Source: an uncultured Eubacteriales bacterium
GTDB taxonomy: Bacteria; Bacillota; Clostridia; Christensenellales; Aristaeellaceae
DNA: 64,000 nucleotides
Assembly: GCA_900318145.1 (NCBI GenBank)
Contig: ONJM01000005.1
Span: 60,237-124,236 of the forward strand
Direction: 5' to 3'
Under the pieces are notes generated by a model. The model searched no databases. It worked only from the letters and a program-made list of their open reading frames with translations, and had not been told where the DNA came from. A program made the position numbers and the translations under genes. Of this stretch, positions 1 through 4,698 are shown piece after piece. Each line of letters opens with the position of its first letter. Positions within the stretch are counted from its first letter, which is position 1.

Positions 1-2
1 TC

Positions 3-242
3 ACCGGCTCGGTCGTATACAATGCCGGCGTGAACGAGAAGTACAAGGCGCTGGCGCAGGAGGACATTCTGCCGCATCTGATCCTGCAGGTTGTGGTCAA
101 AGCGGAGAATGTTCATACCGACTGGGCGCAGGCGATTGTCGCTGCCTACCATTCCGATGAGTTCAAGGCATACCTTGAGAAGGAAAACGCCGCGGAAGGC
201 TTCTGGAAAGGCCTGTGGTGGATTCCGGACGAGCTGAAGTAA
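3..242 (+). CDS. metQ: MetQ/NlpA-family substrate-binding lipoprotein, 3' part only
   Basis: Only the last 79 codons are in the window; the reading frame is open from base 3 and ends at TAA 240-242. The residues match the C-terminal lobe of methionine-binding MetQ proteins (a region like VVYNAGVNEKY followed by a long helix HTDWAQAIVAAYHSDEFKAYL). It would bind methionine or a related amino acid outside the membrane and deliver it to the MetN-MetI importer encoded downstream. The next gene, 42 bp away, is a second and rearranged MetQ. The signal peptide and lipobox lie outside the window, so whether this copy is complete cannot be judged. Confidence 0.8.
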   Translation, partial: TGSVVYNAGVNEKYKALAQEDILPHLILQVVVKAENVHTDWAQAIVAAYHSDEFKAYLEKENAAEGFWKGLWWIPDELK

Positions 243-284
243 TCCGGCCCGGACCAAAGCGATCAACAAAGGAGGATAAAGAAA

Positions 285-1196
285 ATGAATAAATCTGTGA
301 AAAGGATCCTTTCGATTACTGCGGCACTGCTGCTGACCGTTCTGACTGCCGCCGCTTCTGCCGAAACGCTGCAGATCGGCATTCCGGATGACGGCACAAA
401 TCTGTCCAGAGGCATTAAGCTGCTGGAGACGGCCGGGCTGATTACCGTGAATCCCGAAGCGGGTTATACCCCTGAACTGGCGGACATCACCGGATATCTG
501 TATGACGTGGAGGTGGTTCCGGTACAGGCCAATACGCTGCCTTCCACCCTCGGGGATTTCGGAGCTTCCGCGATCAACGGCACCTATGCCATTCCGAATA
601 ACCTGATTCCTTCCCGGGACGGCCTGATCATTGAGAAACAGAGTGAAAGCGGAGACAACCCCTATGTGAATATTATCGTCGCCCGGACGGCGGATGCCGG
701 AAACGAAACCTACCGGAAGGTCGTGGCTGCCTACCAGACGCAGCTGGTTGCGGAGTTTCTGCTGGTGAATTATGAAGAAGCCTTCTTCCCGGCCTTCGCG
801 TACAGCAATGAAATCAGCCTGACCCCGGAAGAAGCGAAGGAGATCGTTGCCTATACTTCCGACAGGGAAGGAAAGGCCGTTGTAACGGTCGGCGTATGCG
901 GCGCGAACAACGATCAGTGGAAGGCGGTCCAGAAGGTACTGGACGATGAGAACGCGGGCATCTATATTGAACTTGTGGAATTTGATGCCTACAATCTGCC
1001 CAATGAGGCGCTGAACTCCGGTGAAATTGACCTGAACGCGTTTCAGCACAAGGCATATCTGAACAACGACGCGACGGTCAACGGCTATGACCTGACGGTC
1101 ATCGGCGATACACTGATTGCCCCGCTGACGCTGTATTCCGAAAAGTTTGACTCCCTGGACGCGCTGAAGGAAGCGGCGGGAGAAAAAGCGCAGTAA
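285..1196 (+). CDS. MetQ/NlpA-family binding protein with circularly permuted lobes
   Basis: This 303-residue secreted protein has a signal peptide (residues 1-26, ending AASA) without a lipobox cysteine. Its order of MetQ motifs is reversed. Residues 28-171 match the second half of a normal MetQ (PDDGTNLSRG at 34-43, INGTYA at 97-102, PYVNIIVAR at 126-134), and residues 198-298 match the first half (NEALNSGEIDLNAFQHKAYL at 240-259, then LYSEKFDSLDALKEAAG). A linker at 172-197 joins the old C-terminus to the old N-terminus. The new ends fall exactly at the loop that normally joins SLDEL to the IPNDPTN-like segment. Start: GGAGG lies 10 bases before ATG 285. It lies between a metQ end and metN, so it probably feeds the same importer. 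The permutation is read from motif order; function is inferred. Confidence 0.85.
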   Translation: MNKSVKRILSITAALLLTVLTAAASAETLQIGIPDDGTNLSRGIKLLETAGLITVNPEAGYTPELADITGYLYDVEVVPVQANTLPSTLGDFGASAINGTYAIPNNLIPSRDGLIIEKQSESGDNPYVNIIVARTADAGNETYRKVVAAYQTQLVAEFLLVNYEEAFFPAFAYSNEISLTPEEAKEIVAYTSDREGKAVVTVGVCGANNDQWKAVQKVLDDENAGIYIELVEFDAYNLPNEALNSGEIDLNAFQHKAYLNNDATVNGYDLTVIGDTLIAPLTLYSEKFDSLDALKEAAGEKAQ

Positions 1197-1229: not shown

Positions 1230-2342
1230 ATGATTGAGATTCGGGAGCTGAATAAGACTTTTCGCCTCAAAACCGGGGATGTGGAAGCTGTCCGGGATGT
1301 ATCCCTGACAATCGGCGACGGTGTGATTTACGGGGTGATCGGATCCTCAGGCGCCGGGAAATCGACCCTGGTGCGCTGCCTCAATCTGCTGGAAATACCG
1401 GATTCAGGAACAATTATCCTGGACGGCGTCGGAGAAATTGTCCTGAAAAACGGGAAACCGTATCTGAACGGAAAGGAAATGACGTCCCGGCAGCAGAATG
1501 ACATGCGCCGGGGCATTGGCATGATCTTCCAGCATTTTAACCTGCTGGACCGCTGCACGGTATTCGAAAACGTCGCGTATCCGCTGATGCATACCGGACG
1601 GAGCCGGAAGCAGATTGAAGAGCGGGTGCGCGAGCTGCTGAAGCTGGTCGCCCTGGAGGATAAGATTGACGGGTATCCGTCCCAGCTGTCCGGAGGGCAG
1701 AAGCAGCGCGTGGCCATTGCCCGGGCGCTGGCTGCGGAACCCCGGATCCTGCTGTCGGACGAGGCAACCAGCGCGCTGGATCCGGAAGCGACTGAAGCGA
1801 TTCTGTCCCTGCTGCAGGAGGTTAACAGGAAGCTGGGGGTTACGGTTGTGCTGATAACGCATGAAATGGCGGTGATCAAGAGCATTGCCGACCGGGTGGC
1901 TGTAATGGAGGACGGCCGGGTTGTGGAAGAAGGATCCGTATATGAGATTTTTGCGGATCCGCAGGAGAAGATTACCCGGAAGTTTGTTGCCTCTTCCTCG
2001 CTGCTCGGCAAACTGGACAGGTTGCTGGAGGAGGATGCGGAACTGGTTCGGGTGCGGCCGGGGGAGATGCTGGTCCGTCTGATGTTCCAGAAGGACTGCG
2101 TCGGAGAGCATCTGCTGACGACGGCTGCCAGGAGATACGGCTTCGACCTGAACATTATCCTGGCAAACTCGGAATACCTTCACGGGAGCCCTATCGGAGG
2201 GATGGCCGGGATTATCAGCGGAGACCGGGAAAAAATTGAAATGGGACTGGCGTTCCTGCGGGAAAACCATGTCAGCGCGGAGGTGATCAGTGATGGAAGA
2301 GCTGATGAGGCAGATCACGCCGAATCTTTACCTGTATCGTGA
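1230..2342 (+). CDS. metN: Methionine ABC importer ATPase MetN
   Basis: The 370-residue protein is the cytoplasmic ATPase of the D/L-methionine importer. It has Walker A GSSGAGKST near residue 37, the signature LSGGQKQR near 153, Walker B ILLSDEATSALD near 174 and the switch histidine in ITHEM near 210. Residues from about 270 to 355 form the NIL ligand-sensing domain found at the end of MetN, which mediates feedback inhibition by methionine in characterised homologues. A short insertion near residue 70 (DGVGEIVLKNGKPYLNG) lengthens the region after the D-loop. It follows the permuted metQ by 33 bp and overlaps metI by 50 bp, so the genes are co-transcribed and probably translationally coupled. 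Confidence 0.95.
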   Translation: MIEIRELNKTFRLKTGDVEAVRDVSLTIGDGVIYGVIGSSGAGKSTLVRCLNLLEIPDSGTIILDGVGEIVLKNGKPYLNGKEMTSRQQNDMRRGIGMIFQHFNLLDRCTVFENVAYPLMHTGRSRKQIEERVRELLKLVALEDKIDGYPSQLSGGQKQRVAIARALAAEPRILLSDEATSALDPEATEAILSLLQEVNRKLGVTVVLITHEMAVIKSIADRVAVMEDGRVVEEGSVYEIFADPQEKITRKFVASSSLLGKLDRLLEEDAELVRVRPGEMLVRLMFQKDCVGEHLLTTAARRYGFDLNIILANSEYLHGSPIGGMAGIISGDREKIEMGLAFLRENHVSAEVISDGRADEADHAESLPVS

Positions 2343-3024
2343 CAAGTTTTACAAGAGCTGCCTTGCAACGGCGGAGATGTTCTGGAAGGCCGGCCTGATT
2401 GCCGGGTTGATCGGCCTGATGCTGGGGATCCTGCTGGTCATCACGAAAAAAGACGGAATAGCTCCAAAGCCGCTGGTATACCAGGCGACGAACCTGGTTA
2501 TCAACATATTCCGCTCCGTTCCGTTCATAATCCTGCTGATTTTCCTGATCCCCCTGACACGGGCGGTCGTCGGAACGGCAATCAATGTGAAAGGCGCTAT
2601 CCTGCCGCTGGTGTTCGGAACGGTACCTTTTTACAGCCGGCAGGTGGAGGTGGCGCTTTCCGGCGTCGATCCGGGAAAAGTGGAAGCTGCGCGAAGCATG
2701 GGCAGCGGCACGGCAGGACTGATCTTCCGTGTGTATCTCCGGGAAGCGGTGCCGGATCTGCTCCGTGTAACGACGGTGACCGCCATCAGCCTGATCGGAC
2801 TGACCACCATGGCCGGCGCGGTCGGGGCAGGCGGCATCGGATCTTTTGCGATCAATTACGGGCAGAATCAGAACCATCCGGACATTGTGAATGTGTGCGT
2901 GATTGTCCTGCTGATCGTTACTTTCATTCTGCAGAGTCTGGGAAACGGTCTTTCCCGGAGAACCACAAACCGCGGGCTGCTGAACCGCAGTCATCGCGCG
3001 AAGGAGAAGGAAGGGACTGTATGA
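2293..3024 (+). CDS. metI: Methionine ABC importer permease MetI
   Basis: This is the membrane subunit of the importer, about 243 residues with five hydrophobic segments and the EAA-loop sequence (EAARSMGSGTAGLIFRVYLR) that docks on MetN. ATG 2293 is preferred because GGAGG ends nine bases upstream inside metN; GTG 2290 directly before it is an alternative. The stop overlaps the start of the M20 gene as ATGA (3021-3024), which indicates translational coupling. Substrate is inferred from family and neighbours; MetI-type permeases can also carry other sulfur-containing amino acids or small peptides. Confidence 0.93.
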   Translation: MEELMRQITPNLYLYRDKFYKSCLATAEMFWKAGLIAGLIGLMLGILLVITKKDGIAPKPLVYQATNLVINIFRSVPFIILLIFLIPLTRAVVGTAINVKGAILPLVFGTVPFYSRQVEVALSGVDPGKVEAARSMGSGTAGLIFRVYLREAVPDLLRVTTVTAISLIGLTTMAGAVGAGGIGSFAINYGQNQNHPDIVNVCVIVLLIVTFILQSLGNGLSRRTTNRGLLNRSHRAKEKEGTV

Positions 3025-4226
3025 CACTTCAGGAAAAGATTCTGGATTACGCGGAAAAACAGTATCCCGCCTACCGGCAGATTGCGCTGGATATCCATGC
3101 GAATCCGGAGACAAGCAATCATGAATATTTCGCCTGCAGGACGCTGTCGGAGCAGCTGAAGGCGGAAGGGTTTGACGTCATGGTGGATGTCGCCGGCCAT
3201 CCGACAGGTTTTACGGGCGTATACAGGGCGAAGAAGCCGGGACCCGTACTGGTGTTCCTGGCGGAATTTGACGCGCTGCCCGGACTGGGACATGGCTGCG
3301 GCCATAACCTTTTCGGTCCGACATCCGTGCTGGCCGGCGCTTCCCTGAAGCAGGTGATTGAGGAGACCGGCGGAGAGATCCGCGTCTACGGCACCCCGGG
3401 GGAGGAAGGCGGAGAAAACGGCAGCGCGAAGGGAAGCTTTGTCCGGGAAGGATTTTTCCGGGATGTGGACGCCGCGCTGTGTGTGCATCCGGGATCAGAC
3501 CGTCATGAGCTGACCCACGCGGAAATTGCCTGCGCGCCGATCCGGATCGAGTTCAGGGGGAAAGCCTCTCACGCATCCTCAGCTCCTCACGAGGGCATTA
3601 ACGCGCTGGACGCGCTGGTGCTTGTCTTCAATGCCATCGGACTGCTGCGCCAGCAGCTGCCCCGGGACGTGCGGATTCACGGGATTGTAACCCGCGGTGG
3701 CGACGCGCCGAATATTATTCCGGATTATACCGAAGGGCGGTTTTATGTGCGCGCGGCAACGGTAAGCCGGATGATGGACGTGATTGAAAAGCTGAAGAAA
3801 ATTACGGAGGGCGCGGCGCTCCAGACCGGCTGTGAAGGCCTGCTGGAGCCTACGCAGCGCAACCTGATCCACAATGTGGTTCCGACACCGTCCTTTGACG
3901 AGGTCTACCTGAAGAACCTGCTTTCCCTGGGGGAAACCTACGAACCGCTGAACGTACCGCTGGGATCCTCCGATGTGGGCAATGTTTCCCAGGTGATTCC
4001 GACGATCCAGCCGATGATCCGGATCAGTGACGTTCCGGTAGCCGGGCACAGCACAGAAAAGCGGGAAGCCTGCAGGGCCGAAACCGGCCTGCGCTCTGTT
4101 GCGCTGGGAGCAAAGGTGCTGGCGTTGACCGCCCTGGACCTGCTCCGGTCACCGGAGCTGCTGAAAAAGATCCGGGAGGACCATGCCCGGGCTGTCGCGG
4201 AACAGGACAGAACGGCGGGCGTGTAG
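3021..4226 (+). CDS. M20-family amidohydrolase (aminoacylase/AbgB-PM20D2-like)
   Basis: The 401-residue cytoplasmic protein has the two-domain plan of M20 metallopeptidases: a catalytic domain with GHGCGHN and GTPGEEGGENG metal-site motifs, and an inserted dimerisation domain beginning near HAEIACAPIRIEFRGKASHA. Closest in style are the amidohydrolases that cleave N-acyl or small dipeptide bonds. It overlaps metI by four bases, so it is probably made with the importer and may release methionine or cysteine from an imported acylated or dipeptide form. That substrate is inference. ATG 3021 is chosen over an upstream in-frame ATG at 2895 because the extra 42 residues lie inside metI and do not look like M20. 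Confidence 0.88.
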   Translation: MTLQEKILDYAEKQYPAYRQIALDIHANPETSNHEYFACRTLSEQLKAEGFDVMVDVAGHPTGFTGVYRAKKPGPVLVFLAEFDALPGLGHGCGHNLFGPTSVLAGASLKQVIEETGGEIRVYGTPGEEGGENGSAKGSFVREGFFRDVDAALCVHPGSDRHELTHAEIACAPIRIEFRGKASHASSAPHEGINALDALVLVFNAIGLLRQQLPRDVRIHGIVTRGGDAPNIIPDYTEGRFYVRAATVSRMMDVIEKLKKITEGAALQTGCEGLLEPTQRNLIHNVVPTPSFDEVYLKNLLSLGETYEPLNVPLGSSDVGNVSQVIPTIQPMIRISDVPVAGHSTEKREACRAETGLRSVALGAKVLALTALDLLRSPELLKKIREDHARAVAEQDRTAGV

Positions 4227-4257: not shown

Positions 4258-4698
4258 ATGAAGTTTTCCACCAGAGTTGAATACGGGATGATTGCGCTGA
4301 CCGATATTGCGCTTCATTCCGAGAGCGGGTCCAGTGTTTCGGCGCCGGATATCGCAGAACGGCAGGGAATATCGCAGAAGTACCTGGAGCAGATCATGAC
4401 GCATCTGAAGCAGGCAGGGATTATCCGTGCCCAGAAAGGACTGCGGGGCGGATATACGCTGGCCCGGCCGGCGGACAGGATCCGGATGTCTGAGATCCTG
4501 AATGCCCTGGACAACAGCATCCTGGAGGAAACGGAATCCCGCGGGGACAGCGGGAGCCTGCGGGACGCGGTGAATGTCTGTCTGTGGCAGAAGATGAACC
4601 GGTCCATGATTGACTTCGCCGAAAACAAAACGTTCTCCGAATTCCTGGCGGAATGCAGGGAACAGCTGTCGGATGAATGGGATTTTTATGTAATCTGA
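4258..4698 (+). CDS. Rrf2-family transcriptional regulator, CymR-like
   Basis: The 146-residue protein starts with the canonical Rrf2 beginning (MKFSTRVEYGMIALTDIA) and has a winged helix with the recognition region QKYLEQIMTHLKQAGI and wing KGLRGGYTLARP. It lacks the three-cysteine cluster that binds Fe-S in IscR or NsrR (only two scattered cysteines), so it resembles the cluster-free CymR/Rrf2 type that controls sulfur amino acid metabolism. It is the last gene after the methionine importer and M20 gene, 31 bp downstream, which supports a role in sulfur-responsive control of this operon. ATG 4258 fits the family start; the in-frame ATG at 4183 lies inside the M20 gene. Confidence 0.88.
   Translation: MKFSTRVEYGMIALTDIALHSESGSSVSAPDIAERQGISQKYLEQIMTHLKQAGIIRAQKGLRGGYTLARPADRIRMSEILNALDNSILEETESRGDSGSLRDAVNVCLWQKMNRSMIDFAENKTFSEFLAECREQLSDEWDFYVI

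Follow-up and report, generated by a model that had tools for sequence, protein, structure and literature searches.

The DNA analysed here is a stretch of 64,000 nucleotides (the window). It opens with the end of a normal-order metQ gene, followed by a second metQ gene whose two halves stand in swapped order and by metN-like and metI-like genes. The features at this end of the window are as follows.

1..242, + strand: 3' end of a divergent normal-order MetQ paralog (whole gene L024:4616-5479; PF03180 profile positions 170-228, 26 bits against 27)
271..275, + strand: Shine-Dalgarno-like GGAGG ahead of the permuted metQ (read from the sequence)
285..1196, + strand: permuted metQ gene, 303 aa, with an ATG start (PDB, Pfam and half-model matches)
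285..362, + strand: likely signal peptide, residues 1-26, ending in ASA, no lipobox (read from the sequence; lipobox pattern)
369..779, + strand: C-terminal MetQ half placed first, residues 29-165, with R42, N98 and N129 inside
780..878, + strand: linker of about 33 residues bridging the old termini, C to N (half-models; low model confidence at residues 194-203)
879..1175, + strand: N-terminal MetQ half placed last, residues 199-297, with Y236, F253, H255 and Y258 inside
1230..2342, + strand: metN-like ABC ATPase with a NIL domain (TIGR02314, 365.7 bits, under the cut-off of 499.7)
2290..3024, + strand: metI-like permease (NF008049, 165.3 bits, under the cut-off of 212)
3021..4226, + strand: M20-family peptidase/amidohydrolase-like gene directly 3' of metI (M20_dimer, 39.5 bits, over the cut-off; Peptidase_M20, 20.9 against 24.6, below it)
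4258..4698, + strand: Rrf2-family regulator (family match)

The order of the halves was established by profile and sequence comparison. PF03180 (NlpA lipoprotein, MetQ/NlpA), the sole Pfam family found for the window protein at E ≤ 0.01, matched the 303-residue open reading frame in two stretches (E = 4.5e-55, 186.8 bits against a gathering score of 27). The best stretch placed residues 30-171 on profile positions 99-236 of 236, and the N-terminal half came after it. Against E. coli MetQ (4YAH), residues 29-157 corresponded to chain positions 131-257, and residues 194-297 to positions 27-130. Twenty-one of the 22 PDB sequences matching the window protein did so in two stretches, and 4NTL did so in one. 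The colinear order that goes with PF03180 membership, N-half then C-half, is thus replaced by C then N. The sequence-only reading had described this exchange, with a signal peptide in front and a linker joining the old ends; the motifs quoted there stand in the order given, and the Pfam and 4YAH matches, the signal peptide and the linker all agree with it. The protein did not reach the NCBIfam cut-offs for MetQ (NF008285, 166.2 against 374; TIGR00363, 146.9 against 228.85), at least in part because such models penalise a permuted chain. All three permuted proteins tested fell under these cut-offs.

To follow the permuted form through related bacteria, we searched genome sets of increasing breadth, which overlap. 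Within the genus, 42 of 45 genomes had a match and 41 of 45 carried a permuted gene, a count resting on single alignments that span both halves rather than on gene-by-gene reading. Orthologs of the window type (66-91% identity) were present in seven other genomes of the genus; the gene of G023 was cut by contig ends. A second permuted paralog, about 30% identical, spanned both query halves in 37 genus genomes. In the family set, a profile of 13 permuted proteins gave both-half matches in 40 of 120 genomes and 17 of 50 genera, that of G104 with an internal stop. In the order set, the permuted form was found in 9 of 200 genomes, from families f1, f31 and f24. Both-half matches came from at least 19 of 391 genomes in the class set (152 genomes matching at E ≤ 1e-30) and from at least 3 of 398 in the phylum set (202 matching at E ≤ 1e-30). 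These two counts are lower bounds because few candidates were scored per genome and only those with E ≤ 1e-30 were kept; divergent permuted genes, such as the f24 gene (E = 1.3e-22 in the order set), would escape this threshold. G138 was left out of the family count, since its match runs across two tandem normal genes. The remaining genomes listed matched one half at a time, or across tandem normal genes (G681, G459, G928 and G1060).

Named genomes, searched with the junction region alone, yielded at least 482 relatives. Among the best 80 of these, 79 were permuted and one was a C-half alone; the permuted carriers included Ruminococcus bromii YE282, Oscillibacter valericigenes An907, Oscillibacter sp. 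ER4 and MSJ-31, and many rumen and gut MAGs. We also built two half-models from 13 permuted proteins and applied them to the open reading frames of 140 loci (L001-L140). The separation was clean, with 75 C-N and 77 N-C frames, both counts including repeats of a gene, and a few cut frames besides. As a check, 14 further genes were read, namely 13 family-set genes and the divergent one of f24, and 14 of 14 proved permuted; these stand outside the tree, linker, lipobox and ligand-residue tallies. The f24 protein itself (L287:2193-3098, genome G343) is a very divergent permuted MetQ-like protein, its halves scoring 27 and 50 bits.

The permuted proteins fell into three clades, namely A (that of the window, with LNAFQHKAYL), B (FAHxPYQ; the paralog of the same family as the window) and C (ANYFQHxPYL; class-wide). 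In clade A, 32-38 residues separate the half-models, and in B and C the distance is 26-32, compared with 2-9 in normal MetQ. Median linker lengths were 32, 27 and 26 in A, B and C, respectively, and the linkers also differ in sequence. A lipobox, scored by a simple pattern, occurs in 93 of 94 sequences of clade C and in 52 of 72 normal ones, but in only 2 of 24 for each of A and B. Rows with almost no leader were omitted here, giving 24 clade A sequences as against 25 in the ligand tally below. The lipobox cysteine expected of a MetQ lipoprotein is absent from the window protein. Most clade A and B binding proteins are thus without a lipobox, unlike the class-wide clade C.

Structure prediction had been proposed as a check in the sequence-only reading. 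AlphaFold2 produced confident models of the window protein (pLDDT 86.3, pTM 0.82) and of the R. bromii protein (pLDDT 94.4, pTM 0.87). In the window model, confidence drops at residues 194-203, and the old N-half opens without a strand. In Foldseek, parts of the window model aligned with MetQ chains over 94 columns at 1.4 Å (3TQW) and 144 columns at 2.7 Å (4K3F), and parts of the R. bromii model over 88 columns at 1.0 Å (4YAH) and 136 at 4.7 Å (4K3F). Judging by the alignment lengths, the aligned parts would be the two MetQ halves. The best matches of the window model, however, were other folds with poor full-length alignment (4H1X, TM 0.46, 8.1 Å). For R. bromii, MetQ alignments of greater length (133-154 columns) fitted only at 4.4-5.9 Å, which may perhaps reflect an open/closed difference. 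A PDB sequence search with the R. bromii protein returned 22 relatives, and all 22 matched in two stretches; therefore, no solved permuted MetQ was found.

In Neisseria MetQ, one lobe contributes R156, N213 and N238 to methionine binding, and the opposite lobe contributes Y81, F98, H100 and Y103 (PMC6739813). All seven are kept in the window protein, as R42, N98, N129, Y236, F253, H255 and Y258, respectively, placed by motif spacing and alignment from that list. The two sets lie in separate halves and belong to opposite lobes by the same paper, and the cut thus falls at the interlobe crossover, as had been claimed from the letters. Across 143 distinct permuted sequences (25 A, 24 B, 94 C), the seven residues are almost always retained. 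Clade A shows a single change of Y103 to F and a single gap at R156, and clade C one F98 to V and one gap each at Y81, F98, H100 and Y103; there are no other exceptions. In 23 of 24 genomes, which were picked by hand, not at random, among permuted carriers, no MetQ other than the permuted one passed the Pfam cut-off. The exception was Oscillibacter sp. ER4, with a normal MetQ besides the permuted one; R. bromii had one further weak PF03180 match, below the cut-off. The permuted form seems able to replace normal MetQ.

The adjacent genes expected of a MetNIQ importer are in place downstream, with MetN and MetI as best NCBIfam matches (both under their cut-offs), and the ABC importer operon seen in the sequence-only reading is supported. 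MetN lies downstream in 132 of the 143 permuted genes (3 of these also having MetI upstream), and 9 of 143 show neither; among normal metQ genes, MetI lies upstream in 68 of 79. The order Q-N-I thus prevails for permuted metQ in both permuted lineages, and N-I-Q for normal metQ. Two clade A genes of family f31 sit last (N-I-Q with Q permuted), as tandem normal genes do. A methionine or SAM riboswitch was found in none of 16 loci, and the sole T-box lay on the opposite strand of L149. A separate observation concerns L282:1446-3185 (G430), a 579-residue chain with an extra N-terminal region before a normal-order MetQ; by its letters, this region looks like an amino-acid-binding domain.

Judging from these residues and neighbours, the permuted protein is most likely an ordinary methionine-capturing subunit for MetNI. 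Its chain would start at the crossover between the lobes and run through the old C-terminal half and the linker of about 33 residues into the old N-terminal half. Most likely it adopts the usual two-lobed fold; methionine would be held in the cleft by the usual residues and passed on to MetN and MetI, the products of the next two genes.

Three other accounts of the protein were weighed. An assembly or frameshift artefact might be suspected in a window that comes from a 63-contig, 88% complete assembly, yet the orthologs from seven other members of the genus share the same order and are read as C-N by the half-models. More distant relatives are permuted in genomes of one or two contigs (G001, G031, G021, G569, G718). 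Assembly error is ruled out by the orthologs at 66-91% identity, and an artefact of any kind has a negligible probability; in the related genomes that the sequence-only reading wished to see searched, the permuted order recurs. A chance match is excluded by the E-values and the orthologs. Against four chosen orthologs, simple counting gave dN/dS of about 0.05 to 0.19 (from dN 0.034/dS 0.67 to dN 0.244/dS 1.27), and permuted metQ is therefore under purifying selection. The MetQ-type substrate-binding protein at 285-1196 is genuine, conserved and circularly permuted. It could also be a MetQ relative serving another ligand, such as a peptide, a sulfur compound or an amino acid other than methionine. 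The sub-threshold MetN and MetI scores, the MetQ score of 166.2 against 374 (partly, at least, a result of the permutation), the long clade A branch (1.28, MetQ tree) and the M20-like gene in the cluster would all suit this idea. Nevertheless, we consider it unlikely, given that all seven methionine-contact residues are present in the window protein while the neighbouring normal-order paralog lacks four, and that the permuted gene is the only MetQ over the cut-off in 23 of the 24 hand-picked genomes. The permutation might, finally, be adaptive: with the membrane anchor at the interlobe crossover instead of the old N-terminus, MetQ would be tethered to MetNI in another way. The lipobox of clade C would agree with this, and something similar was suggested for the permuted T. 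pallidum Tp0684 by its authors (PMC4990184). Because the lipobox is lacking in most A and B sequences (22 of 24 each), a lipid anchor is not the general reason for the permutation, and this account appears improbable, somewhat more so than a change of ligand.

The sequence-only reading had taken the normal-order MetQ directly upstream for the sister copy of the permuted gene. Its whole gene has the N then C order, matches TIGR00363 in one stretch and is the last gene of its own complete N-I-Q operon, with MetN-like and MetI-like genes upstream (L024:2629-5479, ending at window position 242). At the positions of N213, N238, Y81 and F98 it has T, L, L and E, so that four of the seven ligand residues are lacking, and together with five relatives from the genus it sits on a very long branch (2.78, MetQ tree). 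The separate operon, the branch and the missing residues speak against the idea of a sister copy, which this paralog probably is not; its residues suggest that it has probably changed its ligand.

Better candidates for the starting material were found elsewhere. Tandem normal-order metQ pairs end N-I-Q-Q operons at five loci (L062, L102, L103, L114 and L115; families f1, f63 and f212), and G138, G681 and G459 carry such operons with two normal MetQs. Three of the five lie in MetNI operons related to that of the window. Each copy is in the normal order, in contrast to the permuted gene, but copies side by side are material for a permutation. The permuted form probably arose from such tandem copies through loss of the outer halves of the pair. 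For clade A, the simplest path would lead from N-I-Q through N-I-Q-Q and N-I-Q(permuted) to Q(permuted)-N-I, the last step being without explanation. N-I-Q-Q is the intermediate that duplication and deletion need, and its occurrence supports this origin for the window lineage. The proposed route, a tandem duplication from which the outer halves were then lost, is thus supported in general by N-I-Q-Q operons related to the window's, but not with the upstream MetQ as the partner.

We then asked how often the permutation occurred, using quick trees of MetQ, MetN and MetI. In the MetQ tree (139 rows, halves set in one order), the permuted proteins formed two separate groups, A and B+C, with two label changes. 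Clade A grouped with the MetQs of G138, G681 and G459 (support 91), and in the N-half tree it grouped at 100 with exactly seven normal MetQs, from G138, G681, G459 and G013. A single permuted clade was not rejected by MetQ (p = 0.334 for the whole protein, 0.438 for the N half, 0.692 for the C half), and the one-origin tree of the C half was better by 9.2 log units. This test used 89 of the 139 rows, near-copies being thinned and eight long or divergent rows omitted. The partner genes were more informative. In the MetN+MetI tree of 73 pairs, 17 clade A operons fell in a group of support 100 with the normal-order operons of G138, G681, G459 and G013, and 26 B+C operons formed another group of support 100 among other normal operons. 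A single clade holding every permuted operon was rejected by MetN+MetI (p-AU = 8.7e-49, 73 operons), and by the single partners as well (68 rows; MetN, 0.00225; MetI, 0.00485). The 73 operons came from 82 loci; twelve MetQ rows were omitted for a short MetN or MetI, three as second MetQs of one operon, and rows without both partners on one side were also skipped. Five further rows, the G138 operon among them, were dropped from the single-partner trees, leaving the 68.

With a single origin of the permuted operons rejected by the MetN and MetI trees, an identical cut at the interlobe crossover was probably made twice, the second time in another Clostridia lineage, that of clades B and C, which include Ruminococcus bromii and Oscillibacter. 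The competing account is one permutation in a single Clostridia lineage, after which the gene was carried into an unrelated MetNI operon and took the place of its normal metQ. In favour of this account, the MetQ tree does not reject one permuted clade; the cut also lies in nearly the same place in A and in B/C (the C part starts at Pfam profile positions 93-99), and both lineages mostly stand first in the operon. We still regard it as unlikely. Clade A keeps company with the tandem normal MetQs of G138, G681 and G459, joined by G013 in the N-half tree, and its neighbours in the MetQ tree come from the same genomes as in the partner trees. The linkers differ in both length and sequence, and two f31 members of clade A stand last, like tandem normal genes. 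On balance, we favour, with some reserve, an identical cut that evolved twice in Clostridia, with N-I-Q-Q operons, extant today, as the route in at least one case, the permuted protein replacing normal MetQ as the methionine receptor of many cells in both lineages. For the explanation as a whole, a genuine permuted MetQ that most likely captures methionine for MetNI, probably derived from tandem copies and probably cut twice at the same place, our confidence is high.

Compared with MetQ/NlpA of E. coli and Neisseria, the permuted protein is homologous over both halves, has the same seven ligand residues and is encoded beside metN-like and metI-like genes. It differs in its swapped halves, the new termini at the interlobe crossover and the linker of 26-38 residues joining the old ends; the permuted gene is mostly first in the operon and the normal one last, and the window protein is without a lipobox. 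Natural permutation of ABC-importer binding proteins has a precedent in another family. Treponema pallidum Tp0684 (MglB-2, 'Type Ic / Cluster Bc') is, according to PMC4990184, a naturally permuted glucose-binding protein of an ABC importer that still binds its ligand, with relatives also in gut Gram-positive bacteria. The likeness is that of a naturally circularly permuted importer protein; the same paper describes a sugar binder of Type I / Cluster B in which the first three N-lobe strands have been relocated and line up poorly with the corresponding part of the normal form. A Tp0684-like MglB sugar binder was rejected as an identity for the window protein, PF03180 being its only Pfam family. 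In the sequence-only reading, the MetQ family was not known to include a described natural permutation, and a search of the open literature, judged by titles and the start of abstracts, likewise found no paper about a permuted MetQ.

Natural circular permutations are usually regarded as end points whose path is lost. Here, normal, tandem and permuted genes occur in related operons and the cut was seemingly made twice; therefore, each step of the duplication-and-deletion model is open to testing. Colinear family models put the permuted MetQs under their cut-offs, though common gut bacteria carry such proteins. If binding holds, a two-lobed binding protein would tolerate termini at the crossover between its lobes, which bears on biosensor design.
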